Shown: in pieces, positions 11,570 through 14,569 of the stretch | Layout: each line of letters begins with the position of its first letter | How positions within the stretch are numbered: position 1 is the stretch's first letter | Origin: Anaerolineales bacterium | GTDB taxonomy: Bacteria > Chloroflexota > Anaerolineae > Anaerolineales > Villigracilaceae | Assembly: GCA_014860745.1 (NCBI GenBank) | Contig: JACZJC010000052.1 | Location: 1-64,000, forward strand | DNA: 64,000 nucleotides | Direction of reading: 5' to 3' | Made by a program: the position numbers and the translations under genes | The notes under the pieces: generated by a model | The model's database searches: none | The model's input: only the letters and a program-made list of their open reading frames with translations | Told to the model about the DNA's origin: nothing

Positions 11570-11887
11570 TTACAGACTAATTAGAAATTGACAATTTTCT
11601 TCAACAATAAAACTCGACTGAATAGATTCAGATTTTGACAAAGAACATAAATCTATATTTTTACCTAAATCTTCTCCCAACACTCGGCACAATTTCTTTT
11701 TCAAGATTAAAACACTCGTCAAATCAATTTTGTCATAATCATACACAAGCAACAAATCAATATCACGAGGATTATTCTGAGTTAATGCCGAACCAAAGAG
11801 ATAACAATCTCCCCCGCCTTGACGTTCATTTTTTATCTTTCTTAGACTTATCAGGAGTTGTGTAGTTAAAGAATTTATCTCCATCAT
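11570..11887 (-). CDS. small nucleotidyltransferase (MNT/Pol-beta-like)
   Basis: LFGSALTQNNPRDIDLLLVYD...KNIDLCSL. Confidence 0.75.
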   Translation of the reverse strand: MMEINSLTTQLLISLRKIKNERQGGGDCYLFGSALTQNNPRDIDLLLVYDYDKIDLTSVLILKKKLCRVLGEDLGKNIDLCSLSKSESIQSSFIVEENCQFLISL

Positions 11888-12227
11888 AATAGGCGGCTCC
11901 TAAAAATTCTGCAAATAAAAATAAACCAATCTTTTGTCGTTTGCAAGAATCCTTTGCATCTTGAGTATATCCATTCCATGCGCTCATTGTAACTATGGCG
12001 TTTACATCTGGAGCAACAGAGAGAATATCATGCACATCTGAAATGCCAACAATATAGACATTAGTCATAAAAACTTGCAAATCGGATTTTCCTATTCGTC
12101 GAACAATTATTTTCTGTTCAGATAGGTGCTCCACTTCTAAAACCAAAGGATTTGATGACAAATATTGAATTAACGCTTTTACACTTTCTGGACGTGGCAC
12201 TTTTTCGTATTTTCCCGACTCTGACAT
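11826..12227 (-). CDS. hypothetical protein (possible restriction-endonuclease-like fold)
   Basis: ORF between the HNH and NTase genes, overlapping the NTase ORF by 62 bp; DVNAIVTMSAWNGYTQDAKDSCKRQKIGLFLFAEF. Confidence 0.65.
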   Translation of the reverse strand: MSESGKYEKVPRPESVKALIQYLSSNPLVLEVEHLSEQKIIVRRIGKSDLQVFMTNVYIVGISDVHDILSVAPDVNAIVTMSAWNGYTQDAKDSCKRQKIGLFLFAEFLGAAYYDGDKFFNYTTPDKSKKDKK

Positions 12228-12228
12228 G

Positions 12229-12906
12229 TCAATCCTCCAAAACTGTATTTATTTCACTTGGGAACAAAGGCGCTGATGAGTTTTTATCACCTGAAAGGTG
12301 GTTGTACTCAAATGCAGTTTTATGAACTACAAATTTATCAACAATAATCTTTTCTTCATTGGTCAACAAATCATCGTTTATAGAAAACAATTCCCCTAAA
12401 CGTCGATTGTTGGGAATAATATCGGTTTGAATTAGATGCTTCCACATTTCTGCCGCATCACTCATTGGGTTATCGGAAGTTTCGGAATGAGGACCATAGG
12501 CATCAAAAATGGCGCGATTTGCTCTCAATAGGCGTCTCACTTCATTTCGTAAATCATCCCGTGATGAAAAATTGGGAACTTCAAAAAACGTTCTTATTTT
12601 AGCTGCGTGCTCAGTCTTCCAATTTCTCAAAAGTTCAACTGGAAAATGCTTTGGATTCTTATCAACTAAAGTATGGCAAACTGAGCATAAAAGAATAATA
12701 TTTTCATATTCATCTCGCTCACTTAATTCTAATTCTCCTCCTCGAGGACCGTCGACTTTCTGCGCGATTATATGAGCAAGTTCTTCAAAACTTGAAACGT
12801 CCCCGCTCTCAAATAAAACAAATAAATCTCGATGACATTCAGGGTTTTGACAATAACCCCCTGAATGAGCCAACAGCATCTTTGTTACTTTTGCCGATAT
12901 TGCCAT
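12229..12906 (-). CDS. HNH endonuclease domain protein
   Basis: CQNPECHRDLF...EELAHIIAQKVDGPRGG...NIILLCSVCHTLVDKNP. Confidence 0.88.
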   Translation of the reverse strand: MAISAKVTKMLLAHSGGYCQNPECHRDLFVLFESGDVSSFEELAHIIAQKVDGPRGGELELSERDEYENIILLCSVCHTLVDKNPKHFPVELLRNWKTEHAAKIRTFFEVPNFSSRDDLRNEVRRLLRANRAIFDAYGPHSETSDNPMSDAAEMWKHLIQTDIIPNNRRLGELFSINDDLLTNEEKIIVDKFVVHKTAFEYNHLSGDKNSSAPLFPSEINTVLED

Positions 12907-12919
12907 AATTGATTACCTT

Positions 12920-14569
12920 TTACGGCGTATTCGGGCGGACGCGCTGATACAGGTTGTAAAAACTGGCATAAATTCCAAGCGCAAAAACACCCGCCGCTGT
13001 GCCAGATGTAAGCCCAACAGTTTTATCAATTTGCTCCAAAGAAGTGAGTATAAACATGGCAAAAGAGCCAACGCCTAAAACGACAGCAGAAACTCTTGAG
13101 AGCATAGGGTGAGACACATGATCAAATGCGTAATCAACAACTTTAGCCCTAATAGTTAAAGATTCTATTTGATAGCCTGTCTTTGCATCTGAAATGAGAA
13201 CAAGGATTTCATGCACACCTTCTTTGCAATTATCAGTAGGAGTCGCCGAAAAACGGTATTCATTAATAGCTTGATGTAACTCTTGCAGTATCTCGTTTTT
13301 CGTGAAAAGAAAAGCATGACTAGTAAATTCAACTTTTACTTTTTGTCCCAGCTTTATATGGCTAGCTTGTTCGACCTGTTCTTCTAAGATCTTCTCAGGA
13401 TCTTTTAGGTTTTCTAATATTTGTAAGTTTGCTTTTCGAATGCTTCTCTGAACACCAAGATGAGAGTCGGGCAGGTATAAATAAAACAGAAAAGTAGATT
13501 GGCTACCTTTTGATATTAGTTTAGGATATGCAACTGATATCTTGAGACTCTTGCTCTTTTTAGCTTCATATTTGGTTTTTTCACGAGCGATCTTTTGATT
13601 TTCTTCGCGCTCCATCTTCCTTTTAGCCTCTAATTCCATCGCTTTGTATTGAGATTTTTCTGCAGCTTCTCGCTCAACCTTTTCTTTTGTAATTCTGGTT
13701 GCTTGTTTCTGCTCTTCTACAGTACTTTCTTCGCCATCATCTTCCTCGTAACGTGATCTAAATTGCGGCCCTTTTATCTGACTACCAGTTACCATGCTCA
13801 TGACAAAGCCCGTCTTAATGAACTCTTGGCTAACGCCAGGAAACATCATCGCTGTTCCCTCACGGATTTTGAGTCCAGCCTGTTCACTCATAATTTGAGC
13901 ATAACCTGCAGGAACTCGCGAGGACATAGCAAGCAATTTATCCCCATAAGGATCCCCTGTAGACTCGCTAACTCTATATCCGTTCCAATCATTAATATTT
14001 TGGCTCGAAAGGGTAATCTGGTCAGTTATGAAGATATTCTCTACAAGAACGTTCCCATCAGGAACAGATATTTCCTTTAGCTGTTTAGCAAACTCCGCAG
14101 GATCTTGAGTCTCTTCCCCATATTCACAATCCGTTATATTAATTACCATTGGTGGAGGGCATTCATTCAACCACCGTTCAGACCAACTAATTATGTCATC
14201 TTGAATTAATTTAATTGCATACCGAAATGCTTTTGCCATATTTGTCCCCTTATGAGGTGTGATTGAAGGAACACCTTCATCCTTTAATCTGTCGACAGTA
14301 ATAATGCTACCCAATTTCCCATAAACATCATATATATCATCTGAATAAGCAACCATGCCCACTCTATATCTTGGGTGTATTTTTCCCTGTCTCAGGGAAC
14401 GTTGAATCATTTGAGTATAAGAAATTTGTATAACATCTTTAACTGCTTCAATTCTTGTTCTCCCGTCAGGCATAGCAGCACCCATGGAGCCACTAATGTC
14501 CACAAGATAAATCAGTGTAGCAGGATGATCAGAGTTTGCCAAATTTTTATATTTTTCCGTGGATACCAT
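12920..14569 (-). CDS. von Willebrand factor A domain protein with coiled coil and C-terminal TM
   Basis: LIYLVDISGSMGAAMPDGRTRIEAVK MIDAS; Glu/Lys-rich coiled coil; two C-terminal hydrophobic segments. Confidence 0.85.
   Translation of the reverse strand: MVSTEKYKNLANSDHPATLIYLVDISGSMGAAMPDGRTRIEAVKDVIQISYTQMIQRSLRQGKIHPRYRVGMVAYSDDIYDVYGKLGSIITVDRLKDEGVPSITPHKGTNMAKAFRYAIKLIQDDIISWSERWLNECPPPMVINITDCEYGEETQDPAEFAKQLKEISVPDGNVLVENIFITDQITLSSQNINDWNGYRVSESTGDPYGDKLLAMSSRVPAGYAQIMSEQAGLKIREGTAMMFPGVSQEFIKTGFVMSMVTGSQIKGPQFRSRYEEDDGEESTVEEQKQATRITKEKVEREAAEKSQYKAMELEAKRKMEREENQKIAREKTKYEAKKSKSLKISVAYPKLISKGSQSTFLFYLYLPDSHLGVQRSIRKANLQILENLKDPEKILEEQVEQASHIKLGQKVKVEFTSHAFLFTKNEILQELHQAINEYRFSATPTDNCKEGVHEILVLISDAKTGYQIESLTIRAKVVDYAFDHVSHPMLSRVSAVVLGVGSFAMFILTSLEQIDKTVGLTSGTAAGVFALGIYASFYNLYQRVRPNTP

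Follow-up and report, generated by a model that had tools for sequence, protein, structure and literature searches.

An HNH nuclease, X and nucleotidyltransferase cassette as a candidate mobile defence module

Do four tightly packed, AT-rich genes in a Chloroflexota genome form one system, and could that system serve in defence? The genes lie in a stretch of 64,000 nucleotides (the window) at the start of contig JACZJC010000052.1 of an Anaerolineales bacterium (GCA_014860745.1, positions 1 to 64,000). The original prediction had grouped a von Willebrand factor A (vWA) protein with transmembrane segments, an HNH nuclease, a small protein of unrecognised family and a nucleotidyltransferase (NTase) into a four-gene cassette, and had proposed a defence role with the vWA protein as a membrane sensor.

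The window locus and its vWA gene

All four genes are encoded on the minus strand, and their spacing was reproduced exactly. The vWA gene (12920..14569, 549 aa) is followed after a 13-bp gap by gene 1, the HNH nuclease (12229..12906, 225 aa), and after a further gap of 1 bp by gene 2, which we call X (11826..12227, 133 aa). The reading frame of gene 3, the NTase (11570..11887, 105 aa), overlaps X by 62 bp. The AT-richness is equally evident: G+C is 0.40 for the vWA gene, 0.38 for HNH, 0.35 for X and 0.31 for the NTase, as against 0.51 for the window and 0.55 for the adjacent mutase gene. A scan of the locus for promoters and terminators gave results at chance level.

The vWA protein has the features first ascribed to it. 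A TerY-like vWA domain (approximately aa 7-262; Pfam VWA_2 4e-6, above the cut-off, PADLOC TerY 3e-21) with a DxSxS MIDAS motif is followed by a stretch that resembles a coiled coil and then by a C-terminal module (approximately aa 330-549), in which one strongly hydrophobic segment, near aa 488-514, is joined by a weaker second one. Its proposed place in the cassette did not hold: no vWA relative occurs at any other of the approximately 90 related loci, whereas HNH, X and NTase recur there as a conserved unit. The closest vWA kin within the class sit beside PP2C phosphatases and kinase-like proteins, as in TerY-P triads. The window protein shares the TerY-like domain with these triads but has neither a PP2C nor a kinase partner, being flanked by the HNH cassette and the mutase gene, and unlike TerY-P it is fused to the C-terminal module with hydrophobic segments. 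That module is also found, at 50% identity, on a PP2C-FHA protein of the related genome G089, whose gene lies close to one for a protein kinase; G200 and G632 carry it on other proteins, again without the cassette. We therefore rule out the vWA protein as a cassette member on account of its missing counterparts and its kin in vWA-PP2C-kinase loci. A four-gene system, in which a membrane-bound vWA protein would sense infection and control the other three proteins, can draw on the shared strand, the 13-bp gap and the similar G+C; against the absence of vWA relatives at the other loci and the occurrence of its C-terminal module on proteins without the cassette, we give it hardly any weight. The vWA gene is probably a separate, TerY-P-related gene within the same AT-rich insertion.

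Two further observations concern the vWA gene's relatives. The module with hydrophobic segments is a portable unit of about 210 aa (12923-13597 in the window; L025:9232-9870, L027:7378-7944 and L207:1342-2118 elsewhere), carried by the TerY-like vWA protein, the PP2C-FHA protein and two other proteins, and the Pfam scans made gave no family for it. TerY-P-type loci with vWA, PP2C and kinase-like genes are present in same-class genomes at L026, L028, L029, L030 and L031, with two vWA matches close together in L026.

Upstream of the vWA gene lies a methylmalonyl-CoA-mutase-like host gene (14624..16294, minus strand), whose 3′ end is duplicated beside small inserted modules in two relatives. There are three copies in G089 (L025:6203, 6785 and 7872) and two in G299 (L186:2739 and 3031-3079), and one of the G089 modules resembles, by eye, an NTase-HEPN toxin-antitoxin pair. 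These repeated ends suggest that the 3′ end of the mutase-like gene is an integration hotspot. In the window itself, the mutase 3′-end repeat (14624-14700) has no second copy in the stretches of the contig searched, and no clean empty site was found in relatives, in which gene order near the mutase is too divergent. On the other side, an intergenic region with repeated units of 46 and 54 bp (11190-11560) adjoins the NTase gene; beyond this region, the genome contains just two more copies of the units, both partial.

Conservation, fusion and spread of the three-gene unit

Homologues of the remaining three genes, rather than being scattered, keep a conserved neighbourhood. Searching viral contigs and one genome per species with the full-length HNH protein as query recovered at least 80 loci and about 10 prophage contigs with full-length HNH relatives. 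Among the matches listed, a profile search placed X within 1.5 kb downstream of the full-length HNH relative at 88/88 loci with enough sequence, and X together with the NTase at 87/87; the two exceptions to the pattern stop at a contig edge. The same search upstream of the HNH gene gave 2 matches in 89, again among the matches listed. At the 19 control loci, whose relatives share the HNH domain only, neither X nor NTase was found (0/19), so the cassette goes with those HNH proteins that have the C-terminal domain of the full-length form. The controls stem from an HNH search within the class, which returned HNH-domain relatives only. Searches with X alone drew a blank, both in viral contigs and among 299 genomes from the class, and the phage collection held no close relatives of the cassette. 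On plasmids, tblastn retrieved full-length HNH relatives followed by an X-like gene and then an NTase in every region opened, the downstream genes being in places unannotated. Homologues with conserved residues in many phyla identify HNH, X and NTase as real genes.

Gene fusions are strong evidence for joint function. A profile of the HNH protein's C-terminal domain detected two further genomes of the phylum Chloroflexota among 349. In one (G506), a single protein of 474 aa (L199:1147-2571) combines HNH and helical domain (residues 11-236; E 2e-61), X (263-382; 2e-24) and NTase (391-466; 4e-17). In the other (G393, L200), HNH and X form one protein of 386 aa and the NTase is separate. In G393, we also noted a DUF4276 gene directly upstream of the fusion (L200:346-948), preceded by an ATPase-like reading frame; the pair resembles AbiL, the ATPase part by eye.

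The genes also appear to share a history. Among the matches listed, X has a short form of about 133 aa (45 rows) and a long form of about 213 aa (42 rows), which, judging from the alignment, consists of two tandem copies. On the HNH tree, the switch between short and long X needs one change, compared with an average of 29 in 500 shuffles, none of which was as low; this indicates that HNH and X genes descend together. At least 13 phyla, the window's Chloroflexota counted, carry the cassette, and the intermixing of phyla on the HNH tree points to horizontal transfer. Its contexts include plasmids (some conjugative), integrative elements, prophages and islands. We regard it as almost certain that HNH, X and NTase form a functional unit.

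The three proteins and their known counterparts

The assignment of gene 1 as an HNH nuclease proved sound in profile, structure and alignment. The HNH domain (approximately aa 1-107; 12586-12906) is of the Cap5 kind: PADLOC profiles of Cap5-type effectors match down to 6e-24, an AlphaFold2 model (pLDDT 89) matches Cap5 in Foldseek at 8.8e-7, and a PDB profile search returned 9om4 at 1e-33 as well as Cap5 entries. Seven residues (H45, N69, H78, C19, C24, C74 and D82) do not vary in an alignment of 86 rows, which fits an active HNH site stabilised by zinc. The remaining 118 residues (approximately aa 108-225; 12229-12585) are conserved and predicted to form an all-helical bundle with an invariant Pro and Trp and a nearly invariant Asn and His. 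This domain has no confident structural match and no conserved R-x4-6-H pair.

The NTase matches Pfam Polbeta at 6e-6, in agreement with its initial description as MNT-like, and the NCBIfam MntA antitoxin model at 4e-4, below the cut-off. Its active-site motif FGS-x8-DxD (aa 32-44; 11756..11794) has the form FGSx5-13DxD in 80/80 homologues among the matches listed. The third carboxylate varies between D, H and E, and the activity may thus differ from that of MntA.

X, described at the outset as a protein of unknown family, indeed has no match in any family library searched. Its AlphaFold2 model (pLDDT 85) has the order α-β-β-β-α-β-α-β, which fits the PD-(D/E)XK fold; Foldseek support is weak, with every match at E ≥ 0.01 and none at E ≤ 0.001. 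Many of the best-ranked, though weak, matches belong to restriction-endonuclease-like folds: the RPB5 N-domain, MspJI, EndoMS/NucS, Cap4, SfsA and HamA. X is accordingly predicted to have a degenerate restriction-endonuclease-like, PD-(D/E)XK-like fold. The catalytic (D/E)xK is absent from the third strand, and in 87/87 proteins the expected place is taken by a Tyr, mostly within [D/N]xY. This residue, Tyr58 (codon at 12054..12056), is conserved in 45/45 short and 42/42 long X proteins among the matches listed, with both forms aligned together.

How does this set compare with known systems? CD-NTases, the cyclases of CBASS, have a large helical part that is missing from the cassette's NTase of approximately 105 aa. 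A CBASS-like scheme, with the NTase making a nucleotide messenger that would bind the helical domain of the HNH protein, gains some appeal from the pairing of an NTase with a Cap5-type HNH effector in CdnG-Cap5 (PMC8568899). The window HNH protein does share its HNH domain with Cap5 by PADLOC profile, structure and PDB profile, but Cap5 carries a SAVED domain, whereas here the model shows nothing but helices in the last 118 aa and PADLOC matches to SAVED effectors end at the HNH part. Likewise, no CD-NTase model is among the PADLOC matches of the 105-aa NTase. In place of SAVED and CD-NTase, the cassette has a helical domain of about 115 aa, X and a minimal NTase, and the scheme leaves X without a role. 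We consider CBASS-like signalling very improbable.

Another parallel is HepT/MntA, a type VII toxin-antitoxin system, in which the last gene, downstream of one for a small partner protein, encodes a minimal NTase with GSxnDxD, as in the cassette. MntA has a GSX10DXD motif and neutralises the toxin HepT, its partner, by attaching AMPs to a Tyr of that protein (PMC7641770). The two systems differ in spacing (x10 versus x8) and in gene number, the cassette comprising three genes with an HNH nuclease effector. They also differ in the partner, which is a HEPN protein in HepT/MntA; none of HNH, X and NTase has a HEPN match, and the predicted α/β fold rules out X as a HEPN partner.

Other candidates share only parts. 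Hailong (HalA/HalB) is similar in that an NTase controls a defence effector, but HalB matches the NTase of one relative only, over 38 aa and with 17 bits against a cut-off of 190, and no HalA-like gene is present. PDC-M68A of the PADLOC candidate PDC-M68 matches the HNH protein at 6e-25, but the alignment is confined to the HNH domain, with residues 3-106 of the protein on positions 5-110 of a profile of 253, and no PDC-M68 model recognises X or the NTase. The match to Shedu SduA covers residues 3-124 at the HNH end, and the Pfam scan of the HNH protein found no DUF4263. In line with the original expectation, Pfam, NCBIfam, PHROGs and PADLOC contain no catalogued system for HNH, X and NTase; on the window proteins and their relatives, including those of E. 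coli, these libraries gave only HNH-domain and weak NTase matches. No paper naming the gene set was found in the literature searched, and an accession search was also blank.

The main doubt on novelty concerns Rst_3HP of DefenseFinder, which we take to be the three-gene P2-hotspot system of Rousset et al. 2022. Like the E. coli copies of the cassette that were read, it is made up of three small genes and lies in the gpA-gpQ hotspot of P2-like phages. That system is reported to protect against P1 and to have no clear predicted domain (PMC9122126). The E. coli proteins have no 3HP-type match in PADLOC 2.0.0, yet the two may be the same system. HNH-X-NTase is probably an undescribed phage-defence or toxin-control system.

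Defence surroundings and a possible mechanism

The cassette occurs in 14/5,426 complete E. coli genomes, including ATCC 8739 (ECOLC_RS14930-14920; L194:11982-13650), with 85% identity to an Enterobacter copy; two more E. coli genomes have a diverged cassette, and most E. coli copies seen carry the PGAP label 'hypothetical protein'. In the four regions read, it is found in a P2-like prophage, flanked by the replication endonuclease/DinI genes on one side and by the portal gene on the other. In the regions read, ATCC 8739 included, this slot is the gpA-gpQ hotspot of P2-like prophages, where validated antiphage systems have been found (Rousset et al. PMC9122126; Vassallo et al. PMC9519451). The cassette-bearing P2-like prophage of E. 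coli F374 has, in addition, an HNH gene and an AAA ATPase gene at a later accessory position (L195:20263-21634). At some loci, DRT3, Shedu, ABC-3C or a DUF4276 gene neighbours the cassette, and pooled neighbours match 108 PADLOC families versus 60 in a rough control, a modest enrichment given that this control, other DNA from the window's contig and its relatives, is imperfect.

Gene order, fusions, spread over phyla, the P2 hotspot and defence neighbours together uphold the proposed defence reading for HNH, X and NTase as a candidate module, without the vWA 'membrane sensor'. An anti-phage or anti-mobile-element role is likely. The presence of the cassette in plasmids, prophages and islands could also mean that it is an addiction module of these elements, with HNH as a DNase toxin, NTase and X as the antitoxin and no anti-phage role. 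An MntA-like NTase in a compact, overlapping operon, and the presence of the cassette on plasmids (some conjugative) and prophages, would fit such a module; three components instead of two, the gpA-gpQ slot of antiphage systems in E. coli and the known defence genes adjoining some copies would not, and we judge it unlikely. Since toxin-antitoxin modules often defend too, it overlaps with our preferred explanation.

We lean towards a mobile defence cassette in which an NTase-modified partner keeps the HNH nuclease off as the best explanation of the whole. In this model, the HNH protein would be an effector DNase of the Cap5 kind, with the SAVED sensor replaced by a short helical domain. X, restriction-endonuclease-like but catalytically dead, would bind the HNH protein and probably sense an invader or its DNA. 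The MntA-like NTase would put nucleotides on a partner. Its likeliest substrate would be X, modified at the invariant Tyr, and the second choice the HNH protein; this proposal rests on the analogy with AMP addition by MntA to a Tyr of HepT. By the same analogy, the modification would keep the nuclease off; upon infection it would be lost, DNA would be cleaved and the phage stopped, probably by abortive infection. That NTase-catalysed modification restrains a nuclease effector has, in our estimate, a little under an even chance, and Tyr58 of X as the NTase target is a tentative suggestion.

The predicted fold of X, the HNH DNase and the HNH-X fusions could also be read as a restriction-like system, in which X, single or in tandem, would recognise foreign or modified DNA and direct cutting by HNH, with the NTase charging or modifying one subunit; single and tandem X could then confer different specificity. 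Yet the cassette has no methyltransferase, an NTase is an unusual restriction component and X shows no nucleic-acid-binding motif, which makes restriction rather improbable.

If the mobile defence cassette is a true defence system, it would be a widespread one, with 80 or more full-length loci, a range of at least 13 phyla and no name in the four family libraries searched, and it would link Cap5-type HNH effectors with MntA-like NTases via a dead-nuclease-like protein with one invariant Tyr. The native copy in E. coli ATCC 8739 makes the cassette directly testable by gene removal. In its most specific and rather doubtful form, the NTase would tag the invariant Tyr of X, the tag would gate the Cap5-type HNH DNase, and infection would remove or prevent the tag. 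If true, this would be the first account of such an immune switch, one that spans at least 13 phyla and can also take the form of a single three-domain protein.
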